DNA from: a virus
DNA length: 64,000 bases
IMG/VR virus record: IMGVR_UViG_3300020470_005894
Coordinates: 29,915-93,914 of that record
Direction: 5' to 3' (one strand)
Shown here: positions 1,182-47,427 of the stretch, in pieces
Position numbering within the stretch: the first letter of the stretch is position 1
Layout: every line of letters begins with the position of its first letter
Translations under genes and position numbers: made by a program
The notes under the pieces: model-generated
The model's input: the letters and a program-made list of their open reading frames with translations, nothing else
The model's database searches: none
What the model was told of the DNA's origin: nothing

Positions 1182-2015
1182 TTATTCTACTTTTTGTTCT
1201 TGAATAAAAGACGCATGCTGCACGGTATATACGTAATCGTGCTCATAAGTTGTAGAATAAATGGCAAAGCCAGCGTCGTTCTTATCTGAAGAAGCTTCTT
1301 TTACAAAAGACCTTATCTTATGTAAGATATTCTTATCTTCTTCAAGTGTTTTTTCGTTTATACCATAAAAATAATTTTTTGTACGCGCAAATTTTAAATC
1401 ATAAAAAAGCTTTTCACTGCCAGTTTCGTAGTTTACAACGCCAAAAGTTGAAATTCTAGCAGTTTCTGGCTCCTTAGAGACAGATGTCAATAGCGGCTCA
1501 TTGTTTTCAAAAACATTGATCATATTATACGTGCTTGAAATAACATTGTTGATGTCTTTCCAGTAGTCTTTAATTGATATATTTTCCACTATTTCTTCTA
1601 CTAAATTATTTGAAACCACATACATCTTCTTCAACAACGCAGATCTGGCGTAGTTTTGCAAAATATTAAATGTAACATTACATTTAAGCTTCTCTTCGTT
1701 AGACATTTGACTAATATCAGGCTTTATAAACAAAACGGTTGTAGGTTCGCTTTTAATTTGTTCAAGGAGACGCAGAGCGCACCCACTTATGTTTCCGCTA
1801 CCACACATTATGAGAGTTGTGTCTCCCTTACATTTTGATAAACTTAACTTTTTATAGTTTTTTTCATAATCTTCATGAGAATTTTGATACTTAACCGGCA
1901 GAAATGTATCATACCCCTTGTTTTCTGTGTCAACACAAAAAACCTTATATTGTTCATAATTTTTAAAATTATTAGCTATTTGACAGCCAGCGTTTCCTAA
2001 TCCTATAATATTCAT
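1182..2015 (-). CDS. Divergent tubulin/FtsZ-superfamily protein
   Basis: The protein has 277 residues. Seen: an N-terminal Rossmann start MNIIGLGNAGCQIANNF, with GLGNAG at 5-10 in the place of the FtsZ T1 loop; VFCVDTE near 25-31; CGSGNISG at 71-78 in the place of the tubulin signature GGGTGTG; VLFIKPD near 94-100; and a stretch at 135-160 (VSNNLVEEIVENISIKDYW) that lines up with FtsZ PNDKLLKVLGRGISLLDAF. The order and spacing match the GTPase half of FtsZ. The catalytic T7 motif NxDxxD is not recognisable, and the second domain is short. It may form filaments that place phage DNA, like PhuZ or TubZ, or be a non-polymerising remnant. The start overlaps the polA stop (ATGA), so the two are probably co-translated. 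Confidence 0.65.
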   Translation of the reverse strand: MNIIGLGNAGCQIANNFKNYEQYKVFCVDTENKGYDTFLPVKYQNSHEDYEKNYKKLSLSKCKGDTTLIMCGSGNISGCALRLLEQIKSEPTTVLFIKPDISQMSNEEKLKCNVTFNILQNYARSALLKKMYVVSNNLVEEIVENISIKDYWKDINNVISSTYNMINVFENNEPLLTSVSKEPETARISTFGVVNYETGSEKLFYDLKFARTKNYFYGINEKTLEEDKNILHKIRSFVKEASSDKNDAGFAIYSTTYEHDYVYTVQHASFIQEQKVE

Positions 2016-3190
2016 TTAACTTCCCTCATAACACCAAAATTCTTTCCTATTCGTAAATTTGTTTTAATTTTGCCCAGCTTTGTATCTCCAAACTGCTGTA
2101 AGATCTCTTCAACTAGTGGTCGATCTTCCAGAGAATAATCAAGCACTAGGCTATCGTGCACACAAAAAGAAACAGTCGATTTTCTATCTGATAGAATTTT
2201 ATTAATTTTCATTGCTGAGTGTAAAAACATATCGCTAGCAGTGCTTTGCACAAGGTAATTAACTGCCTTATCCCTACCAACATCAATATTGCGCCCAAAA
2301 GGCGTATGAACGGCGTTATTGAGATAGTATTTTTCATATAGGCGGTCGCGATCTAAAAATTGATTTAACTTTTTATTTTTAGCTTGGGGGTTATAAAGCC
2401 ATGCAAATACTTTTTTCTTTGCTTGTTCGCGAGTATACTTCCCAGCAAAAATATTTTCAGAAATCCACTGATGAATATCTTCAGCGGGCTGGTCTTGTCC
2501 CAAAAGATAAAATAGAACTCTGATCTCTGCAGCATTGTAGTCCAACTCAATAAAACAGTCATTTGTAGGCTTAATTGCTCTTCTAAGGCTCTTGTTGAGA
2601 GTAAGAATAGGAAAACTATTTTTATTTGTAGTCAAACGACCTGTCACTGTACCAAAGGCGTTATAACTAATAAAAGGCGGTGAGCTTTTTATTTTTTGTA
2701 CAACTTTCCTTACCGCACTTTCCGACATGTCTAGATTGTGTAAATCTATATTTAATTTTTGTTTCTCAAGGACCTTTAAGAAAATTATTAAATCATACAA
2801 AAAATCATGATTTTCAGGTTTTTTTTCCTCTTTAAATACATGTTCAGTAATCTGATTTTTTACTTCAAAAAACTCCAGTAAAAACCAATCAGGCATTAAA
2901 TCATAAAAACATATATCTTGTAAATTAATTTTACTTTTTTGGAATGAATTTAGAAAAGCAGATGCCTTTTTGTTTAAGGCCAGCCAATATGGCTTCAAGT
3001 CCTCTGGGCAACAATCATCTAGTGTTTTGCCCATAGACCATATAATGCCACAATCGTAACGCTCATTGGCAAAATTAGATGCAGGAAACCAAGTTCGTGT
3101 TAAATTTAAATCCTCGCTAGCTTCTTTAATTTCACCGTCGACATACACACTGGTACATTGATTTTTATTATCAAGAACTTGAAAAAGCAA
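2012..3190 (-). CDS. polA: Family A DNA polymerase, compact, no exonuclease domain
   Basis: This 392-residue polymerase shows the PolA motifs in order. They are TGRL at 183-187, motif A LDYNAAEIR with metal ligand D217, motif B RxxxKxxxFxxxY with R254, K258, F262 and Y266, QSTASD near 315-320, and motif C VHD at 344-346 with catalytic D346. The first 170 residues match neither the 3'-5' nor the 5'-3' exonuclease domain, so proofreading must come from elsewhere. The start appears to be TTG at 3190, five bases after GAGG; the next in-frame Met is about 50 residues in and would remove a coherent N-terminus. T4 uses a family B enzyme; a polymerase of this class within T4-like virion genes is known from Rhodothermus phage RM378. 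It overlaps the downstream tubulin-like gene by 4 nt. Confidence 0.9.
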   Translation of the reverse strand: MLFQVLDNKNQCTSVYVDGEIKEASEDLNLTRTWFPASNFANERYDCGIIWSMGKTLDDCCPEDLKPYWLALNKKASAFLNSFQKSKINLQDICFYDLMPDWFLLEFFEVKNQITEHVFKEEKKPENHDFLYDLIIFLKVLEKQKLNIDLHNLDMSESAVRKVVQKIKSSPPFISYNAFGTVTGRLTTNKNSFPILTLNKSLRRAIKPTNDCFIELDYNAAEIRVLFYLLGQDQPAEDIHQWISENIFAGKYTREQAKKKVFAWLYNPQAKNKKLNQFLDRDRLYEKYYLNNAVHTPFGRNIDVGRDKAVNYLVQSTASDMFLHSAMKINKILSDRKSTVSFCVHDSLVLDYSLEDRPLVEEILQQFGDTKLGKIKTNLRIGKNFGVMREVK

Positions 3191-4508: not shown

Positions 4509-7447
4509 TATCTAGGTTTCCCAGGTGTTTGCTGCCAGCCGGTAACTTTTGTTGTGTATGTCCCAGCGCTAAAAGTATTAGTAACAGTGCCAATCAAATG
4601 ATAACCACCTAAATTCATTTGATACGCTAAAGAGGACGCGTCTTCAACACTACCTAAGCCAGCCATGCTTGGATTGACATAATAGAACATTCCAGGTGTA
4701 AATAAGCTATTACCCACCAAATCTAGGTTTGTGTGATAAGGAAACTTTAACTGTTCTAGATTGCTTCCGCCATTTTCTATGGCCTCTCTGTATCTTGCCT
4801 CTGCAAGCCCGGGCAAAGCGACTCTTTCAAAATTCATCTTTGTCAATAGGCCGCGGTCGGATCCAATGTTAAAATGGTATATACCATCCTTAAGGTCTTC
4901 ATTTGGATTCCCTCTTCTGTCGCGAAGATTCTTAACTGTAGTAACATATATTAGCAAATAATCATACGAAGTTTTTATCATTGACTCGGAAGATTGTCCT
5001 TGGCCTAAAGCATTTAGATAAAGTTCTTTAAAAACAGGCCCGTCTACGTCAATAGTCCTGTGTAGTGGTAAAAGTTCTTTTGTTTTACCAACCATCCGAC
5101 CACAAATATTTATTGGTGCTTCGTCGGTTTGCCTACCAGGTAGAGCCATGGCAACAATACTAGACATGCTTTTTGGTAGTCTAATGCTGCTAGGCATGCC
5201 AACACCCATAGCAGGAATAACTAAATCATTGATACACTGAGTTAAAAAGTCACCCAAGGGCATCGACGCTCTTTTTTTTCTAATAATTGTTTTTAAAAAC
5301 CATGCTCTGAAATAATTAAAAGATATTGGAAACTGTGCCAAATTAATAGTTTTAATTTTTCCAGTCTTTTCGTCAAAATATTCTATGGGCCCTAATAGTA
5401 TTCTCATGTTGTTCAGGCCATAATTCAACCCAGCATCCTTATTTAGCTCCCCCTTTTTTTTGTTATAGCCATAGTAAGAAGTCTCAGTAAATGGTGGGTA
5501 AGCGCGATCTGATGTTTGCTCTCCAGAATCATTAGTCTGCACAGAGCCATATTGAAAAAATTCGTCTCCCACAGCGTTAGCATCAATCAAATCAAGGGCT
5601 TTAAATCCGGCATTTTTACATGCTAATTCTATTATATCTCCCAGGTAAACAAAATAAAATTTATAATTTTCTCCATCAAAATTTAAAGTCGTTGTTCTGG
5701 AGGGGTCTTTTTTCCTATCGCCAGTATTTTTATCAGTTGAACCAGTTTGATTTTCAGATAGAGCGTTGATATCTTGTGCAACTTCACTCTTTAAATTGGC
5801 ATCTGATGATATCAGCTGGTTACATCTACCAACTTTTATTTGTGGTTGCCCCTTGGGGATTGCAGTGGTGCCACCCTCTAGTATCTGCTGCATCGCTTCT
5901 TCGTAGCTAGCTCCTTGATTAGTCAACGACTCTACTGTTTGCTGTCGCTTAATCGGAGTTTCCTCTATCCCACCTAAATGTTTTATAACTTCATGCTTGG
6001 GTACGTTTATACAAAAAAGCCTAGTTTCTGGAGGTCCGTCGCCTCTCTGATCATTGCCAGTTATTAGTTGGTCAACAAAAGTTTTATATATGTCTTTCTT
6101 GAACATACCAACTCTTCTGCGCGTTATAGCTAGCATCTTATCTGCATTCGCTTTCTGCTTAAACCACAGATATATTTCTTCACCGTCTCCAATAATCTTG
6201 GTGACTCCCTTCCTTTTTGTTGTGGCTGGCCCACCTGCCTCTTCGAAGACAGAGGAGAACACTAAATCGCTTTCTAATACTTCTCTTAGCTTTTTTCTAG
6301 AAGTGCACTTATCATCTTTGCAGCCGGGCTCGTTTAGTTCCTTATAAAACGAGTGGATCATCGAAATTATTTTATAAATATGCGCAGGGTTGTTTTTTGG
6401 ATCTGCTGTTTTGGATATCTGACCTTTCCCTGCCTTTCCCATTCTTCTAGTGTCTTGAAAAATATTAACTTGGTTTGTGCCCACCATGGTCTCTAAGTGG
6501 CCGCGGTAATTGGCAGTAAGTAAGACTTGACCATCTTCTTGTATATCAAGATTGTAATCAACAAGTGTTAACGAAACAATTGTGTTTAATTTTTCAATTT
6601 CATTAACCATTTTTACTTCTTCTGCAGATAAATTTAAGCTTTGTAGTGCCTGCTTCGATGGCGAGGTATACCCCATGAGCACTTTTATGATATAATGTTT
6701 GGGATTGTAAGTTTCAGCGTCCTTGACGTATCTTGAGGGTGGCCATAATATTAAATCAACATATCTTAAGCCTCCTTTTGTAAAATGAGGCTCACCTGGA
6801 GGCTGCGCATTAACGTCTTTCAGAGATTTAAAAATTATACTCATGGAGCACTCTATGTTATTTTCCAATACGCCTAGAGACTCACCGTCTTGTTTGATTG
6901 TAAAAGATTTTAATCCTACATTACGCCAGTTTGGCTTTGTGGTTTCGTGCTTTAGATATTCGCTGACACTTACAACACTACCTAGTCCAAAACTATCTGC
7001 AAATTTAAACTCTTTGTAGCATGGGGTAGGGAGTGGTTCTGTCTTTCCCTGATCTGGGGTACCGTCCTCTGCAAATACTGTTTCTTCGAAGTTCACCTTA
7101 TAAATTCTAACTTTTGGCTGCATGAGGGATAAGACTGTATTCTTAATATTATAAAAAACACCTACATTATCAATGCCTCTTAATTTGTTCACAATTTGCG
7201 TACCATCTCCGTTAACTTGCCTGAAGGTCAAATAATTAAACAAGTCTTTTCTTGAGTTATAAAAATTATTAACTTTATCAATATTTTGACTCAATATGTA
7301 TTGTTCAATGTTGCCGCGATCACGGTTATCATTTGTTAAATTCTTTTTTCTGCGGATCGTCTCCTCAACAGTCAAGCCTTCACCAGGCTTAGATATTGAG
7401 TCTAAATCGCCCGAACCACCGGGGCTTGTTATATCTTTAGAAGCCAT
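4508..7447 (-). CDS. Large baseplate hub-like protein
   Basis: This 979-residue protein follows the gp53-like gene by 2 nt. The C-terminal 60 residues (FTPGMFYYVNPSMAGLG, then GGYHLIGTVTNTFSAGTYTTKV) resemble the end of hub proteins of the gp27/GpD fold, in which this segment closes a beta-barrel. The middle contains long polar stretches (about 500-640) that look like insertions and an N-terminal half of mixed alpha/beta character. T4 gp27 is under 400 residues, so this protein would be much enlarged. Expected role: hub at the centre of the baseplate, coaxial with the tube. An RBS (GGATATTAAAG) precedes ATG 7447. The family call rests on C-terminal pattern and gene order only. Confidence 0.55.
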   Translation of the reverse strand: MASKDITSPGGSGDLDSISKPGEGLTVEETIRRKKNLTNDNRDRGNIEQYILSQNIDKVNNFYNSRKDLFNYLTFRQVNGDGTQIVNKLRGIDNVGVFYNIKNTVLSLMQPKVRIYKVNFEETVFAEDGTPDQGKTEPLPTPCYKEFKFADSFGLGSVVSVSEYLKHETTKPNWRNVGLKSFTIKQDGESLGVLENNIECSMSIIFKSLKDVNAQPPGEPHFTKGGLRYVDLILWPPSRYVKDAETYNPKHYIIKVLMGYTSPSKQALQSLNLSAEEVKMVNEIEKLNTIVSLTLVDYNLDIQEDGQVLLTANYRGHLETMVGTNQVNIFQDTRRMGKAGKGQISKTADPKNNPAHIYKIISMIHSFYKELNEPGCKDDKCTSRKKLREVLESDLVFSSVFEEAGGPATTKRKGVTKIIGDGEEIYLWFKQKANADKMLAITRRRVGMFKKDIYKTFVDQLITGNDQRGDGPPETRLFCINVPKHEVIKHLGGIEETPIKRQQTVESLTNQGASYEEAMQQILEGGTTAIPKGQPQIKVGRCNQLISSDANLKSEVAQDINALSENQTGSTDKNTGDRKKDPSRTTTLNFDGENYKFYFVYLGDIIELACKNAGFKALDLIDANAVGDEFFQYGSVQTNDSGEQTSDRAYPPFTETSYYGYNKKKGELNKDAGLNYGLNNMRILLGPIEYFDEKTGKIKTINLAQFPISFNYFRAWFLKTIIRKKRASMPLGDFLTQCINDLVIPAMGVGMPSSIRLPKSMSSIVAMALPGRQTDEAPINICGRMVGKTKELLPLHRTIDVDGPVFKELYLNALGQGQSSESMIKTSYDYLLIYVTTVKNLRDRRGNPNEDLKDGIYHFNIGSDRGLLTKMNFERVALPGLAEARYREAIENGGSNLEQLKFPYHTNLDLVGNSLFTPGMFYYVNPSMAGLGSVEDASSLAYQMNLGGYHLIGTVTNTFSAGTYTTKVTGWQQTPGKPR

Positions 7448-39602: not shown

Positions 39603-42600
39603 TCATTCATTTACATATGCCTTTCCATTTATTTTCTCAATCATAATCTGACTATCAACAATGTCTTTGAGAGAATCTAAGTGAGAGATTAAAAGCACAG
39701 TCTTAAACTGTGTTTTGATCATATCTAGAATTCTAATGAAGCCTTCCATATTTTCTGCGTCTAAAGCTGTCCCGGGCTCATCTAAAATAAATATATCTCC
39801 CTTTGGAAGGGTGGAGACATTCAACAAAGCTAATCGGATCGCCATGGCTGCAATTGTTTTTTCTGCTCCAGACCCCATCTCGATAGGTCTTGCGTCATAG
39901 CTTGGGTGCTTGATAAGAATGTCTAGCTTTTTATCATCATTTTCAAAAAAGATATCAAATTCAACAATATTGGTTAAAATCTTTGAAATCTCGTCGTTGA
40001 TTAAAGGCAGGCGTTTTTTAATGATATCATAAGATATGCCATTTGGATGTGTACATCTCATAAATAAGTCTGCAGTTGTATACTCTTCCTGCATATCTAA
40101 AAATTTCTGCTTATGTTCTTTTAATTCTGTATTTTTTTGTTCATATCTGCCAACTGAGGTATACAAATCAATAAGATTTTTCTTTAAAACAACTGACTCA
40201 TCGTTACAGAAGTCAATTTGTTTGCTAATTTTATCTCTCTCAAGAACTAATTGTTCAAAATTTTCAATAACTTCTCTATTTTGCTCATATAATTGTTCTT
40301 TCTCCTCTAAATTTTCTAAGAAATTTTTTGCTTTCAAGAGTTTAATTTTATCTTTTTCAACATCAATCTCTAATTGTGAAACATCTTCACGCTTTGTAAC
40401 TCTTTTCTCCATTAAAAGCTGATATTTATCATAGTATTCGTTAATTTTGTGAGTATCAAGCTCTTTTAATTTTGAATTAATTGTTATCTTATTAAGAGAA
40501 AGTTGGTTAATTCCTATCTTTACTCTATTGGTATCGTCCAAAGTGTTTCTGGCATCTTTAACAAAATGACAACGATCGCTAAGTTTTATAGAGCATGGGA
40601 TATTTTTTAGAAGATTTAATTTTGTATCAATTACTCCTCTTCTGGCCTCATATGTTAAGATCTCCTCTTCAATTTGTTGCAGCCTCTGTGTATATTCACT
40701 AGCAATTTGTTTTTTAGAATTAACGTCTTCAATGTCAAAGCCATTAAGGAAATTTTCAATTTTCTGTAAAAAGTTTTTTTCATTTACCAGTGCCTCCTTC
40801 TTTTTTGTTAGGTTGACATCTAGTATTGTAGCCTGCTTTTTAATCTTCTTGAGGTCTCTAACTACTTTCTTGATATCAACCACTTCTTCTGGAATAGAGT
40901 TGATTTGATGCTCAATATTTTTAAAATTGTCTTGTAAAATTCTTAATTCTTCTAATTTTTGCTTCTCTAGTCTCTGCTGGTTGAGCATCTTAGTTTCAAT
41001 GCGCGCAAATTCAGTATTTGACAGCTGAATTTCGCTATCAAAATCCCTATCTTCCATCTTTCTTATCGCGCCTTTTAAATCAGAACAATCATCTTTTACT
41101 AATTTAAACTTTTTTTCAAAAATTTCTAAATCTAAAAACTTAGCTAAAATTTCTTTTCTACGTGTAGAGCCTTCGTTAATATATGAAAGAGAGTCTAGTT
41201 GGCTAGCCATTGAAGTAGTCAAAAAATCATCGATAGTGCCGAAAATTTTACGTATATTTTTATCTGTTTCATTTCTGGTAATCCCATTCAATGGTGTTTC
41301 TGTACCAGTTGCGTTATCATATACAGAAAATTCTATATCTGTTTTTGCCTCATCAGTTTTTTTGCCTTTTAGAGTCTTTACATACTTTTTACTAACTCTT
41401 TCAATTTTATATGTCTTTGTACCAATATCAATTTCAACATAACCGCGGCAATCCTGCTCTTCTTGGTTGATTAAATTAAAATTACGACGATTATTCTTTG
41501 ATGTAGTATTGTAGATCGTATATAACATACTGTCAATAATACTAGATTTTCCAGAAAAATTCTTTCCCAAAATACCAACAACACCGTCTAACTTTGAAAA
41601 ATCAATCGAGTTGGATTCACCATAATTAAAGAGATTATCCCACTCTAGCTTCTTTAGCTTCCAATTGATGTTTCTTCGTATGTCCTCTTCTTCTTCAACT
41701 ACAGTATTGTATTTACGATTCATTTCATAAACCCGCTTAAGGGTTTCATCGTCTGGCTGATAATCGTTTAAATACTCATTAATAAACTGCTCTTGCACTG
41801 CAATATCACGAAGATCTTCCTGAAAAAAAGAATTTGTTAAAGATTCTACGCTGCCTCTCTCTCCCGCAGATCTGCTAAGATAAGTCACGCTCTCTGGTTT
41901 AAATCGAACCTTTGCAACATCGACCGCGCGGCGTACAACATCTAAAGGTAAGTTATTCTCAGAAATAAGCCTTAATCTAGCACTTTTTTGTACATTTAGC
42001 TTGTTAGGCAGCCTACCCTTAGGAGTAAGCTTAACAGTTACAAAAGGTTTAGGATTTTGCAAAATTATATGCTTACAGGTAAAGTTATCTTTATCTAGAA
42101 TGTCCCATAATAGAAAACCCTTGTCGTTTGTTTCGCCATGGTTTTGTTGCACCGTTGATCCGCAGTATCTAATTTTACCACTTTTGTCGAGCGACTGGTT
42201 GGTTTTGTGAATATCTCCAAGAAAACCATAGTCGAAATTATTAAAAATGTTGATATCATCGTCGCCATGCTCCATTTTCCAGCCAGTATCAGTCTTTACG
42301 CCGCCAACAGAACCGTGATACAAAGCAATATTAATTCGCTCATAGCTGGTGGGATTCTGCCAATTGTCTCTGTCAAAAACTGAAAGAACGTTAATAGTAA
42401 ATTGATCATCTAATCTCACCTCCCCTGAGTCCTTAAGTAAATATAAGCTTGGATGATTTAAAGCAGAAACTATAGGTGTTAAAGCATCTTGGCGGCTTGA
42501 GTTTTTTAAATTACCGTCATGGTTGCCAAGAATCACGTAAGTTGGTGCAATATCCGCCAAGTTTCTAAGAAAATCCGAACACATCTCAACAAACTCAGGG

Positions 42601-42758
42601 CTTATTTGAGTTTTTGTATGTGCGATATCACCACAATGAATAATAAAATCTGGCTTTTCTTTTAAAAGCTTCTTATAAAGTTGTTTAAAAACTTCTCTAT
42701 ATTCTTTGTGGTATTTTAAATTACGAATATGTGTATCTGCTAGATGAGCAAATTTCAT
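39603..42758 (-). CDS. Mre11-Rad50 (gp47-gp46) fused recombination nuclease/ATPase
   Basis: This 1051-residue chain joins two proteins that are separate in T4. Residues 1 to about 330 are an Mre11/SbcD phosphoesterase with DTH in LADTHI, HCGDIAHT, LGNHDG and a later GDIHK. After a linker comes a Rad50/SbcC ATPase: WalkerA GKNFSGKSS near 395, long coiled coils, a turn with two Cys near 720 (CSIKLSDRC, not a CxxC hook), the signature GSGAEKTIAAMA near 960 and Walker B DIFILDEPGTALD. It should resect DNA ends for recombination-driven replication. ATG 42758 has AGGAG 6 nt before it; an in-frame GTG two codons upstream is less likely. Confidence 0.92.
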   Translation of the reverse strand: MKFAHLADTHIRNLKYHKEYREVFKQLYKKLLKEKPDFIIHCGDIAHTKTQISPEFVEMCSDFLRNLADIAPTYVILGNHDGNLKNSSRQDALTPIVSALNHPSLYLLKDSGEVRLDDQFTINVLSVFDRDNWQNPTSYERINIALYHGSVGGVKTDTGWKMEHGDDDINIFNNFDYGFLGDIHKTNQSLDKSGKIRYCGSTVQQNHGETNDKGFLLWDILDKDNFTCKHIILQNPKPFVTVKLTPKGRLPNKLNVQKSARLRLISENNLPLDVVRRAVDVAKVRFKPESVTYLSRSAGERGSVESLTNSFFQEDLRDIAVQEQFINEYLNDYQPDDETLKRVYEMNRKYNTVVEEEEDIRRNINWKLKKLEWDNLFNYGESNSIDFSKLDGVVGILGKNFSGKSSIIDSMLYTIYNTTSKNNRRNFNLINQEEQDCRGYVEIDIGTKTYKIERVSKKYVKTLKGKKTDEAKTDIEFSVYDNATGTETPLNGITRNETDKNIRKIFGTIDDFLTTSMASQLDSLSYINEGSTRRKEILAKFLDLEIFEKKFKLVKDDCSDLKGAIRKMEDRDFDSEIQLSNTEFARIETKMLNQQRLEKQKLEELRILQDNFKNIEHQINSIPEEVVDIKKVVRDLKKIKKQATILDVNLTKKKEALVNEKNFLQKIENFLNGFDIEDVNSKKQIASEYTQRLQQIEEEILTYEARRGVIDTKLNLLKNIPCSIKLSDRCHFVKDARNTLDDTNRVKIGINQLSLNKITINSKLKELDTHKINEYYDKYQLLMEKRVTKREDVSQLEIDVEKDKIKLLKAKNFLENLEEKEQLYEQNREVIENFEQLVLERDKISKQIDFCNDESVVLKKNLIDLYTSVGRYEQKNTELKEHKQKFLDMQEEYTTADLFMRCTHPNGISYDIIKKRLPLINDEISKILTNIVEFDIFFENDDKKLDILIKHPSYDARPIEMGSGAEKTIAAMAIRLALLNVSTLPKGDIFILDEPGTALDAENMEGFIRILDMIKTQFKTVLLISHLDSLKDIVDSQIMIEKINGKAYVNE

Positions 42759-42814
42759 ATACACTCCTGCGTCTTAGATAAAAATAAGTACGCAACAAAA
42801 TTAATAAAGAAAAA

Positions 42815-43562: not shown

Positions 43563-44516
43563 CTATATACCTCGTATTCTATTAATTAAATAGTTATCTA
43601 ATGTCAAAAGGGAAGCAGACTCTTTTCTGTTGATAAATTCTTCATTTGTCATTTCGCCTACATCGTTATATGGAGCTACGTCAATATTGTAAAGTTCAAT
43701 TCCATACTTTAAAAATAATTTAATTATATTATCAATTTTTTTTTGTACATCTGCGTCTAAAGCTAAGTAAACCTTAGTGTCATTTTCAATAATTTTTTTA
43801 AAAATCTTCGAATTATAAGTTAGTGTGGATCCTAAAAGAGGCACAGAGTTGAAGCCAGCTTTCATAGCATCAAATACGCCCTCAACAATTGTAATCTCTT
43901 CAGTAAAATCTAAGTACAACTCATTAAAAATTATATTTTTTTTAATATTAGGATTAATATATTTTGGCCATGTATTCGAATAACTTCTGCCAATATAGTA
44001 GTTTATATCACCGTCATTGTCAAAAGAAGGCACTACAATCCTACTAGCGTACTCTCCAGTTGGGCAGAAACCAATCTTCCATTTTAAAATATCTTCTCTA
44101 GAGATGCCTCTAGACTCTAAATAATTTAAAGCCGGAAGCGCGTTTCTTGGCAAGCTTGTATTTGCAAGTGAAATATAACTTAATGGTAAATCAACTTTTT
44201 GTGTTTCTTCTGCAGAATTTTGTTTTCCAAATAACTTATCAGCAAAATCGTTAATCTCTACTTGTTGATTAAGTTTTCTCCATTCCTGCTTCTGCTTGTA
44301 GTTTCCAAAACTTCGAATAATTTTATATAAATTTCTTCCAGACCAATCACAAACCCAACACTTGAAAAAACCTTTTTCTGTGTTAACAGATAATTTTCTT
44401 TTGTGATGGTCGCACTTGGGGCACTTAAACAATATTTGTTTTTCACTTTCTCTGTGAAAATATCCAAGAATATCTTTTAAAATTTTTAATTTTTCTTCTT
44501 CTGACAATCCAGCCAT
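43563..44516 (-). CDS. 61: DNA primase, DnaG/gp61 type
   Basis: The 317-residue primase has an N-terminal zinc finger (C32PKC35 and C53WVC56) that reads template. A TOPRIM catalytic core follows with VEGVFDA at 211-217 (Glu212) and LALDAD at 251-256 (Asp254 and Asp256 region), and the conserved FCPTGEYASRIVVPSFDNDG stretch. It makes RNA primers for the family A polymerase. No helicase domain is fused and none is seen in the window, so it must work with a helicase encoded elsewhere. It overlaps the RuvC-like gene by 31 nt; ATG 44516 is the best in-frame start, with only a weak RBS. Confidence 0.9.
   Translation of the reverse strand: MAGLSEEEKLKILKDILGYFHRESEKQILFKCPKCDHHKRKLSVNTEKGFFKCWVCDWSGRNLYKIIRSFGNYKQKQEWRKLNQQVEINDFADKLFGKQNSAEETQKVDLPLSYISLANTSLPRNALPALNYLESRGISREDILKWKIGFCPTGEYASRIVVPSFDNDGDINYYIGRSYSNTWPKYINPNIKKNIIFNELYLDFTEEITIVEGVFDAMKAGFNSVPLLGSTLTYNSKIFKKIIENDTKVYLALDADVQKKIDNIIKLFLKYGIELYNIDVAPYNDVGEMTNEEFINRKESASLLTLDNYLINRIRGI
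43587..43594 (-). promoter_or_regulatory. ACTATTTA element before the Gly/Ala-rich gene
   Basis: The minus strand reads ATAACTATTTAATTAATAG inside the last codons of the primase gene, 26 nt before ATG 43561. Being coding, it is the least certain of the eight copies. Confidence 0.3.
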
Positions 44517-45004
44517 CCTGCACGTGCTATCACCCAACTATCTGCCATGTCATAGCAATGAGGCTTTGGATTTCCGTGCTTAGTATATTCTATAAGAACA
44601 TCTGGCACGTTGTCAATTACATATTCTATAACACACTTTTTAGCTTTTTGACCTTTTGGTACTTTTATACCTGCTAGTTTTCTAGCGGAAGTTGCGGCAA
44701 TATATTCTGGTTCAAGGCCCCAGATTTCATAGCAAATCCAAGAGACAGCTCCGTTAAATCTGGATAAGGTTGATAAAGTTCTTGCAGAAGAAAAGCCAGA
44801 TCTAAAAGATTGCAAAGATTGTTCAATATATATTTTTTCAGGATCGGTAATAATTGTTTCTAGCCTTGCTTTAACGACTTCTACCTTATCAAAAAAACTT
44901 TTATATTTTCTAGTATCGATTGCAAAATTATAGTCAATCTTGCCTGAGCAATCTATAACAGTTACGCCAGTTATACTGGTGCTAATATCTAAACCTATAA
45001 TCAT
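44486..45004 (-). CDS. RuvC-like Holliday junction resolvase
   Basis: The 172-residue protein has an RNase H-type fold start, MIIGLDISTSITGVTVID with catalytic Asp6, a second acidic residue in KIYIEQSL (Glu61), and the closing helix CYDMADSWVIARAGW with Asp152 and Asp155. Order and spacing match RuvC-family nucleases, which cut four-way junctions. T4 uses endonuclease VII instead, so this is a different solution for clearing branches before packaging. It is paired with the primase by overlap. Confidence 0.85.
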   Translation of the reverse strand: MIIGLDISTSITGVTVIDCSGKIDYNFAIDTRKYKSFFDKVEVVKARLETIITDPEKIYIEQSLQSFRSGFSSARTLSTLSRFNGAVSWICYEIWGLEPEYIAATSARKLAGIKVPKGQKAKKCVIEYVIDNVPDVLIEYTKHGNPKPHCYDMADSWVIARAGWLDCQKKKN

Positions 45005-45016
45005 GATATTATTATA

Positions 45017-46228
45017 TCATATGTCTAATTTAAGTTTAAATGTATAAGAGCGTTCTTCAAGCTTTCTTACTGGATTGGCGACGCCAGCGATTGCAATTAA
45101 ATTTTTGTCTTTATCATATATACCAATTTTAGATATATAAGTTACTGGCTTAAAGCTAGCGCTATAGTTTGTGTGACTGCTAGAAACAATGTTTTTGATT
45201 TCATTTCTAGCATCCTCATGAAATATAAACGACGAAGAAAAAGTGCGTAACATTGTACCAGATAAAAATGTTGGATTGTTTGAAAAATTAAGCTCATTTT
45301 CTTTAGCATGCGCAAACATTGTTACTGTATTTACATAATCTTGGCCATTGAATTCAATTGAATAACTTGAAGATGGTGCATTTGCAGCTGAGCCGGTGGC
45401 ACCAAAATTATACCACGAAGCACTGGTTGCGCTAGGGAAACTAGAGTCTGCGTTAAGCGGATCATACATCTCCATATGTGCAGACCCCCCGGAAGCCTCA
45501 GAAAATATGGGGGAACTTGAAGTTAATACTAAAAAACCCTCATTATATAAAGCAACACCAATCTCTTGACCAGTGGTTGATCCAGAGGTTTGATACAATA
45601 CACCATTTCTTTTTGTATCAGCAGCTTCGGCTAAAAGTGTACCAGTGACATAGTATTTTAATCTTATGCTTCCTTTTTGTATGCTAGATCCGTAAAATAT
45701 AGAAGGGATGCTTACAATATTTAATTTTTGATCTGGTTTGTTCCCTAAAGAAGATGAGTAAGCATAATGTGGACTCAACACAGTGTGGTAGTTAAGAGTG
45801 CTTTCTAATGCGTATAAAACTTTTTTCTTATCAGCTGAAAAAGTTGTTCCGTACTTATCAACAGAAATTCCAGCTAGCATTGGATAAGAGCCACTGAGAA
45901 TGTCACCGTAAACAAAATCATTATTAAAAGAATCTGTGCTGATTGTTTTAAAACTAGAAAAAGAGCCGTTTTTTGATACAAATGGATATACCATTTGTGA
46001 ATCAGTACTAGAAGATACTAGATTGCGGTTTACATTTATTTCATGTAAATTAATTTTTCCATTAGGCGTATGATAATTTTGCGCGCTTTGGTTTTCTTCA
46101 TTATAATATATCGATCCAGACCATATTAAAAAACTGACTTTTGGAAAAACCTTTATTCGGTTTCGAAATATATCAGATTTTTCAAATTTGTGGTAGTTTC
46201 CATACTTCGGGGTATGTGATGGCATCAT
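45017..46228 (-). CDS. Virion structural protein, paralogue of its neighbour
   Basis: The 403-residue protein is Ser/Tyr/Asn-rich and mostly beta. Its last 80 residues (YISKIGIYDKDKNLIAIAGV, ANPVRKLEERSYTFKLKLDI) match in order the end of the next gene upstream (YITSVGLYSPDNELMAVAKL), so the two are paralogues. A run of AAGGGGGGAA precedes two adjacent ATG codons (46228, 46225), and the second has the better spacing. It belongs to the right-hand set of large particle genes. I would expect a baseplate or fibre-attachment component. Confidence 0.6.
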   Translation of the reverse strand: MMPSHTPKYGNYHKFEKSDIFRNRIKVFPKVSFLIWSGSIYYNEENQSAQNYHTPNGKINLHEINVNRNLVSSSTDSQMVYPFVSKNGSFSSFKTISTDSFNNDFVYGDILSGSYPMLAGISVDKYGTTFSADKKKVLYALESTLNYHTVLSPHYAYSSSLGNKPDQKLNIVSIPSIFYGSSIQKGSIRLKYYVTGTLLAEAADTKRNGVLYQTSGSTTGQEIGVALYNEGFLVLTSSSPIFSEASGGSAHMEMYDPLNADSSFPSATSASWYNFGATGSAANAPSSSYSIEFNGQDYVNTVTMFAHAKENELNFSNNPTFLSGTMLRTFSSSFIFHEDARNEIKNIVSSSHTNYSASFKPVTYISKIGIYDKDKNLIAIAGVANPVRKLEERSYTFKLKLDI

Positions 46229-46236
46229 TTCCCCCC

Positions 46237-47427
46237 TTAGTAGTCAAGCCTTACCCTCAGAGTCAACTCAGTATTAGGATCTTTTCTGATTGGTTCTGAT
46301 AATTTAGCAACCGCCATTAATTCATTGTCTGGTGAATATAAACCGACAGAAGTAATATAAGTTACTGGTAAGTCAGAAACATTATTTTTTACAACAATCT
46401 TGCTGTTAGAAACATAAGTTGGGTTGCTGCTGTAGTTATATTCATTGTGGTTAACACGACAGAAATGAATGGCAGAATTTAATTCAATAGTATTATTAAA
46501 GTCTATGTCATATATTCTATGTCTAAAGGCTTTTGCTAGTTCTTCAATAGTTCCTTTTTGCTGTGCGACATGCATATTGATTCCGCCAACATTAGTTTGG
46601 CCACCGTCGTCGGTCCAAGTCTCGCCTCCAGCCTGGAATAAAGGCGCCTTTGTCATCGCTGTACCTACAGAGCGCCATTTTCCAGAATCAGAGAAAAATG
46701 ACGACGTCAAGGCTATAATGCCTGCTTGGTAGAATATAAGGCCAACACCAGAATGATTCCCGCCGCTTGAGCCGTCATATGCTTGTGACCCAGTAAATAA
46801 TATTCCATAATCGCCAGCGGGACATGTGCGGAACTCGTTTGCAGCACCAAAATCAGCAACTGTTGTCAGCTCATAAAGGTTGCGTATGCCATTCTGCCCA
46901 CCAGGGTAAGATCCAGATCCGGCGGCCGCGATGGCGCCTGCTGACCCAGAGCGAAACAATTGCATCGAGAACGATCCTTTCTTGATTTCATCTTTGACCA
47001 ACAAGCGTGAGAAGTTTATGAAAAAACACTGGTTCATCATATCATAATTGATTACAGCGTTATCATCACCAATTGCGCCATCTGATTCAAATTTTCTAAT
47101 ACTGCCGCTTATATCATAACCAAATAAAACCTGAGCCATCTGATTGTAGATATTTAACTTTTTAGCATTTTGTGTATAGGCACTGGCACTAGCATTAGCA
47201 CTAATTCCAAAAGTAACATCAAAAATTTGATTTGCTGAAGAGCTTAAGTACGGATAATCGTAAACTGAATTGAACATTCCATGTGAAAAATTCTTAACAT
47301 TATGCTCTGTATTATCAGTGTTGTAGGTTCCAGAAGCAATTGTTCCTGTGATAGGAATTGCCTCATGAAGCATTGTTCTCGTATTTACTATATCGTCGCC
47401 TAGTAACGGTTTATAAGTTTTAGCCAT
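46237..47427 (-). CDS. Virion structural protein, paralogue of 45017-46228
   Basis: The protein has 396 residues, with the same C-terminal domain as its neighbour (YITSVGLYSPDNELMAVAKL, SEPIRKDPNTELTLRVRLDY). The first half is beta-rich with many Ser and Gly (SGSAGAIAAAGSGSYPGGQN). A stretch KAFRHRIYDIDFNNTIELNS lies near 300. No signal or membrane segment. Tandem duplication within a structural operon suggests two related subunits in one part of the baseplate or a fibre connector. Confidence 0.6.
   Translation of the reverse strand: MAKTYKPLLGDDIVNTRTMLHEAIPITGTIASGTYNTDNTEHNVKNFSHGMFNSVYDYPYLSSSANQIFDVTFGISANASASAYTQNAKKLNIYNQMAQVLFGYDISGSIRKFESDGAIGDDNAVINYDMMNQCFFINFSRLLVKDEIKKGSFSMQLFRSGSAGAIAAAGSGSYPGGQNGIRNLYELTTVADFGAANEFRTCPAGDYGILFTGSQAYDGSSGGNHSGVGLIFYQAGIIALTSSFFSDSGKWRSVGTAMTKAPLFQAGGETWTDDGGQTNVGGINMHVAQQKGTIEELAKAFRHRIYDIDFNNTIELNSAIHFCRVNHNEYNYSSNPTYVSNSKIVVKNNVSDLPVTYITSVGLYSPDNELMAVAKLSEPIRKDPNTELTLRVRLDY

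Follow-up and report, generated by a model that had tools for sequence, protein, structure and literature searches.

The window, by which we mean the whole 64,000-nucleotide stretch of DNA that was analysed, comes from a marine phage and carries on its minus strand a gene in which homologues of Mre11 (SbcD) and Rad50 (SbcC) share one open frame, running from an ATG at 42758 to a stop codon at 39605-39603. Pfam places Metallophos over residues 1-184 (4.5e-14, above the cut-off) and SMC_N over residues 368-1038 (1.1e-13), the PHROGs give an SbcD-like family over residues 1-370 (6e-30) and an SbcC-like family over residues 182-1051 (1.2e-47), and sequence comparison with solved structures finds Rad50/SbcC and Mre11 of archaea and bacteria. 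These matches and the coordinates agree with an earlier note on this DNA, which had read the frame as a fusion of 1051 residues with phosphoesterase motifs followed by ABC ATPase motifs. The motifs do lie in that order (DTH at residues 8-10, GDIAH at 43-47, GNHD at 78-81, Walker A at 398-406, SGAEK at 963-967 and Walker B at 990-995), the nuclease and ATPase motifs are essentially invariant across the alignment of the family, and the note had correctly equated the halves with T4 gp47 (Mre11) and gp46 (Rad50).

39603..42758, minus strand: fused Mre11-Rad50 (SbcD-SbcC) gene, 1051 aa, single open frame, ATG start
42764..42768, minus strand: Shine-Dalgarno sequence AGGAG, 5 bases 5' of the ATG
41859..42758, minus strand: Mre11/SbcD phosphoesterase and capping domain, residues 1-300 (Pfam, PHROG, structural match)
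42207..42218, minus strand: Mre11 motif V, GDIH, residues 181-184
41688..41804, minus strand: Mre11 C-terminal helix pair, residues 319-357, candidate Rad50-binding helix-loop-helix (AlphaFold2)
41667..41687, minus strand: linker, residues 358-364 (from the length of segment 340-372 in relatives)
41127..41666, minus strand: Rad50 N-terminal ATPase lobe, residues 365-544 (Pfam/PHROG, alignment, AlphaFold2, structural match)
41541-41567, minus strand: Walker A, GKNFSGKSS, residues 398-406 (motif)
40608..41126, minus strand: ascending coiled-coil arm, residues 545-717 (AlphaFold2 helices; fast evolving)
40050..40568, minus strand: descending coiled-coil arm, residues 731-903 (AlphaFold2)
39606..40049, minus strand: Rad50 C-terminal ATPase lobe, residues 904-1051 (motifs, structural match, alignment)
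43563..44537, minus strand: DnaG-type DNA primase gene, upstream, conserved neighbour of the fusion (phrog_47, 4.9e-42)
44486..45004, minus strand: RuvC-like Holliday junction resolvase gene, same gene run (phrog_159, 5.7e-9)

The gene order is primase and RuvC-like resolvase, then the fusion, then terminase and portal genes. Among loci with enough flank in the two clades described below, the primase lies upstream of the fusion at 52/54 and 70/70, often within about 100 bases, and a RuvC-like resolvase is present at 54 of 80 window-clade loci. The record also encodes SSB and a tail sheath, together with a RecA/UvsX-like protein, a DnaB-like helicase and a DnaE-like polymerase called by eye. 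This neighbourhood fits the recombination-coupled replication of a myovirus.

Several further genes were recorded in passing. A family-A DNA polymerase fragment of just 392 aa lies at 2012-3190 of the window, and a 1141-aa frame resembling a DnaE-type polymerase at G000:C1:16369-19794. By eye, G000:C1:5974-14903 encodes GroEL-like, ClpP-like protease, small heat-shock, peptide deformylase and IMP dehydrogenase/GMP reductase-like proteins. At 1182-2015 of the window is a 277-aa protein beginning MNIIGLGNAGCQIANNF, a tubulin/FtsZ-like glycine-rich start, for which there was no PHROG match. The structural-looking neighbours at 45017-46228 and 46237-47427 share a C-terminal S-x-G-[IL]-Y-x-x-[DN] and are apparent paralogues; genes similar to this pair adjoin the fusion in Microcystis phage Mel-JY01.

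The fusion is genuine and of a known type

We scanned viral contigs with the window protein and, from 413 relatives, kept the best 80 (52-76% identity); a second scan, with the Mel-JY01 protein as query, gave 80 more (38-50% identity to Mel-JY01) and another two scans brought in 39 distinct relatives. All of the best 80 of 413, which lie on other IMG/VR contigs, have one open frame, and 79 of them span both domains, the remaining one ending with its contig. Relatives from the later scans are likewise fused, giving about 200 distinct fused relatives on independent viral contigs. Residues 340 to 372 form a segment that takes in the final Mre11 helix, the linker and the opening strand of Rad50; its length is 33 or 32 residues in 203 of 204 sequences, and R362 and N363 in the linker, as well as W366, are nearly invariant among the 204 aligned. 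T4 does keep its two homologues as separate genes, but uninterrupted frames of about 1050 aa on independent contigs and the near-fixed segment dispose of a sequencing or assembly error hiding a stop codon between two genes, the one result that the earlier note, which had also proposed comparison with related phages, had said would overturn its reading. The 93,914-base record, which is partial, showed no other Mre11-like or Rad50-like locus. The suggestion that fusion fixes a 1:1 stoichiometry adds little, canonical Mre11-Rad50 complexes forming M2R2 already; nothing points to the further suggestion that fusion may alter closure of the coil, because the near-fixed linker is compatible with normal docking of the Mre11 helix-loop-helix on its own Rad50.

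Fusion of this R555 type is already known and is not new here. Yoshida et al. 2011 described Mre11/Rad50 fusions in Mimivirus (R555) and a Bacillus phage, and also in plasmids, bacteria and eukaryotes. Most of the R555 homologues in aquatic metagenomes belong, they argued, to viruses, part of them to phages, and they inferred that such homologues are abundant in aquatic phages. They confirmed fusion in environmental sequence for just a few long sequences, and placed the Mre11 C terminus near enough to the Rad50 N terminus for a short linker (PMC3175470). Our own plasmid relatives were only distant Acinetobacter SbcC-like matches (23%). Like the window protein, R555 has the Mre11-Rad50 order in one chain, a short linker and an Asp in motif V (PMC3175470), although at 1351 aa it is longer, as is the Tupanvirus protein (A0A6N1NVE8, 1379 aa), which together with that of Harvfovirus (A0A3G5A2X2) is a single-chain fusion that we group with R555. 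Two phage proteins are also single chains distant from the window's in sequence: that of Tenacibaculum phage pT24, with GDIH and a CHKC hook, and that of Bacillus phage 0305phi8-36, which lacks the capping/helix-loop-helix part (PMC3175470).

Mel-JY01 (WWT39521) and about 80 IMG/VR relatives form the sister clade, with fusions of about 1050-1067 aa, GDIH, a primase upstream and structural genes near the fusion similar to those in the window. Mel-JY01 is about 28-31% identical to the window clade, and the sister clade differs from the window in carrying CxxC hooks throughout and other variants of Walker A and B. T4 gp47 and gp46 have homologous domains and are expected to act likewise in resecting ends and in recombination-dependent replication, but are two genes, with a CPTC (CxxC) hook at 288-291 of gp46 on a much shorter coil and GHFH in gp47. 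The nearest solved head structure, E. coli SbcCD (PDB 6s85, 7yzo), is formed by two polypeptides rather than one.

As a separate observation, L168 (CP070664.1, a 2.8 Mb WOR-3 bacterium MAG chromosome) holds a truncated copy of the fusion at 901217-913091, with phage neighbours (a structural gene, RuvC-like, primase) followed by masked bases and unrelated genes; the locus is a prophage junction or a mis-join.

The apex hook occurs as two discrete tip types

We modelled the window protein with AlphaFold2 from a 58-sequence alignment (mean pLDDT 81, pTM 0.48). An antiparallel coiled coil is present between the ATPase lobes (helices 545-717 and 731-903); it is the least conserved part of the protein, the ascending arm being at about 25-27% identity between members. 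At its apex lie the following features.

40569..40607, minus strand: apex hook loop, residues 718-730, Cx7C type, between AlphaFold2 helices 676-717 and 731-766
40593-40595, minus strand: hook C722 (conserved in 78/81 of the first set)
40569-40571, minus strand: hook C730 (conserved in 81/81 of the first set)

The earlier note had remarked on a Cys-x7-Cys near residue 720 where a CxxC zinc hook would be looked for, and the predicted apex loop bears this out: the window protein has C722-x7-C730 and lacks the canonical spacing. The loop is poorly resolved in the full-length model (pLDDT about 46-58). A coil model of the CxxC-bearing relative L192 (AlphaFold2, mean pLDDT 90) puts its CxxC in a 13-residue apex loop, the same length as the window's.

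Across 122 window-clade sequences the cysteines are separated by six residues in 89 and by seven in 19 (window included), while 13 carry CxxC and one lacks the first Cys. Long-spaced tips therefore make up 108/122, following the pattern P-C-G-x(n)-C-K-F-I-K-D-A, in which the spacer from one cysteine to the other is 6 or 7 residues (consensus [VI]PCGxx[FY]xxCKFIKDA). The window and sister clades are reciprocally monophyletic, and every sampled member of the sister clade has CxxC, whereas the window clade is mostly Cx6/7C. The CxxC tips have the consensus HEYDPDCx[YF]CxENKFVKDA, which resembles that of the long-spaced tips at its ending only. Among about 200 sequences we found no graded intermediates between the two, apart from L053 (sequence DDPGFLKGCKCLHEA), the sole sampled window-clade member without the first hook cysteine.

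Published accounts treat the CxxC zinc hook as a conserved feature of Rad50 proteins, ranging from archaeal to human and viral ones (PMC5093744, PMC9569753), and the 2011 account of the fusions makes no mention of the hook (PMC3175470). We found no report of a non-CxxC or hook-less Rad50 in the open-access literature, a scope that does not establish absence from the literature at large. Judged from the sequences, the window's hook is a variant inside the Rad50 family and no ground for exclusion from it, because CxxC occurs in 13 members of its own clade and in the whole sister clade. Fusion as the cause of the odd hook is ruled out: proteins of the sister clade are just as much fusions and yet CxxC throughout, so that the hook varies independently of fusion.

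One could instead suppose that the long-spaced hook is a decayed CxxC without metal or thiol function, the arms dimerising through hydrophobic or coil contacts like an SMC hinge. The missing first Cys of L053 agrees with this, as does the finding that SMC hinges are able to replace hooks (PMC6969161). We nevertheless consider decay unlikely, because 108/122 sequences retain two cysteines at exactly 6 or 7 spacing in the protein's least conserved region, and a further 13 window-clade sequences carry their two as CxxC; decay also predicts the graded intermediates that, save for L053, were not seen. With two Cys per chain, a Cx6/7C tip could dimerise by an intermolecular Zn(Cys)4 site or a disulphide, or could support a hydrophobic clasp.

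The heads that carry the hook are conserved

The Mre11 part matches S. aureus SbcD (7dog_A; Z 23.5 over 273 residues, 3.6 A) and MjMre11 (4tug; Z 22.8), and the Rad50 part (residues 366-1051) matches E. coli SbcC (7yzo_D; Z 29.7 over 352 residues, 3.4 A), the closest solved head. Overall, SbcC/Rad50 heads match at Z 23-30 and SbcD/Mre11 at Z 22-23.5. Among viral models, the top matches are to complete single chains of Tupanvirus, Harvfovirus, Yasminevirus, Catovirus and phages such as pT24, in match lists that consist mostly of ABC heads, so that a family missing from them carries no meaning. Walker A, Q-loop, signature, Walker B, D-loop and H-loop of the split Rad50/SbcC head are all present and invariant or nearly so, the C-terminal lobe contributing the signature SGAEK (963-967), Walker B FILDEP (990-995), the D-loop ALD (998-1000) and H1026 of the H-loop. 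Ahead of the first Rad50 strand, two helices are predicted at residues 319-333 and 337-357.

Phosphoesterase motifs I-IV are kept (DxH, GDxxH, GNHD and the fourth-motif His). Motif V, expected as GHxH and present as GHFH in T4 gp47, is GDIH in 204/204 relatives, Asp replacing the first His and the second being kept. This substitution could alter nuclease activity, and, together with the alignment of motif I as DIQ in six relatives, it might suggest that the protein is an ATPase-only tether with a dead nuclease rather than a repair nuclease. That seems to us quite improbable, since the window clade keeps every other metal-ligand motif unchanged and an Asp is, in principle, able to ligate Mn2+. 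Moreover, the same Asp is found in Mimivirus R555 (Asp242 in place of His206; PMC3175470) and in pT24, whose motif V is also GDIH, and this common occurrence argues for a stable lineage trait and not decay. We take the motif V Asp, on alignment, to be a signature of the fused lineage.

Two observations concern individual relatives. The six with DIQ in place of DxH (L123, L129, L131, L135, L141 and L151) belong to the CxxC clade; the change would drop a metal-ligand His, and these six are possibly nuclease-impaired. In L083 (LR756508.1, a 484 kb phage) an insert of about 1 kb, at about 4640-5590, lies just past the GDIHK codons of the fused gene and encodes a Cys-rich, nuclease-like frame; it looks like an intron or homing endonuclease placed at the catalytic motif.

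Tips have been interchanged between lineages

To follow changes of hook type we built trees without the coil. On the heads-only tree the 13 window-clade CxxC members are scattered, implying 9 changes, 8 of which are forced by strongly supported branches. The Mre11-half tree gives 8 changes and the Rad50-head tree 9, falling to 7 each once branches below 0.9 are collapsed, and from these trees we estimate that the tip types were interchanged at least 7-8 times. These swaps rest on metagenome assemblies, and two of the CxxC groups contain more than one distinct contig. Alignment columns that fully track hook type occur only at the tip, at about 720-733; since no head column does so, a tie between hook type and head residues is ruled out.

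Identity within pairs shows the tip behaving apart from its surroundings. For distant pairs (heads less than 75% identical), CxxC tips are 73% identical, flanking coil 27% and mixed tips 24%; for close pairs (heads at least 85% identical), tips of the same type are 84% identical and mixed tips 32%. L047 and L062 have heads 91% identical and coils 43% identical; no other of the 42 pairs with head identity of 0.90-0.95, for which coil identity averages 75%, has so low a coil value. In the coil tree L062 is sister to L182, whereas the head tree separates them. For L192 and L264 only the tip is similar (75-83%), the coils being at background level. The swapped segment has no single size, in that L062 differs across most of the coil and others chiefly at the tip. 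Tip DNA is only 61-77% identical between CxxC lineages, which means that the exchanges happened long ago and allows neither a donor nor a breakpoint to be named; recent swaps from identifiable donors are unsupported, and a very old polymorphism with recombination accounts for the pattern as well as recent transfer does.

The divergence of tip DNA, and coil flanks that follow the head tree in some cases, are also what repeated convergent mutation in place of exchange might leave behind. Convergence would, though, need at least 7 origins of the roughly 20-residue HEYDPDCxYCxENKFVKDA, with indels, and would do so with no intermediates among about 200 sequences, and we regard it as very improbable. 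We therefore read the hook tip, from these comparisons, as a discrete, exchangeable dimerisation module with two alleles moved by recombination.

A single-chain enzyme with an exchangeable apex

Our reading, to which we give a probability of about 0.82, is that the gene encodes a single-chain phage Mre11-Rad50 end-processing nuclease of the R555 kind whose apex module exists as two recombination-swapped alleles. From two chains we would expect the usual M2R2-like assembly, a ring in which the nuclease dimer and the ATPase heads lie together, opposite the hook. The phosphoesterase halves would dimerise, the ATPase heads would close around DNA upon ATP binding, each Mre11 helix-loop-helix would dock at the root of its own Rad50 coil via the short, near-fixed linker, and the cysteine hook would join the arms at the apex. 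The enzyme most likely resects and tethers DNA ends, like T4 gp46/47, and would serve recombination-dependent replication and repair with the neighbouring primase, RuvC-like resolvase and RecA/UvsX-like protein. On this reading the apex is a module of about 15-20 residues, with P-C-G-x(5,6)-C-K-F-I and canonical CxxC as its alleles, which recombination has swapped between lineages with no visible change to the heads.

Opinions differ on whether the hook does more than act as a passive clasp. Swaps on heads that show no visible change fit the view that its job is simply stable dimerisation. In yeast Rad50, replacement of the hook by a MukB hinge works (PMC6969161), which shows that a different hook chemistry is tolerated as long as dimerisation persists, and by analogy these phages look like a natural case of that swap. 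More speculatively, and on balance doubtfully, the hook types may be mutually incompatible and exchanged under diversifying selection, either avoiding mixing with the enzyme of a co-infecting phage or of the host, or suiting metal-poor or oxidising conditions.

The fused protein provides Mre11-Rad50 from a single gene at fixed stoichiometry, which would be handy for biochemistry, and L047/L062 and L192/L195 are matched pairs for probing hook chemistry. The fusion was known; what is new is the hook variant, with unusually clear signs of repeated exchange, in a large natural family whose altered cysteine spacing has been exchanged with CxxC at least 7 times on nearly unchanged heads.
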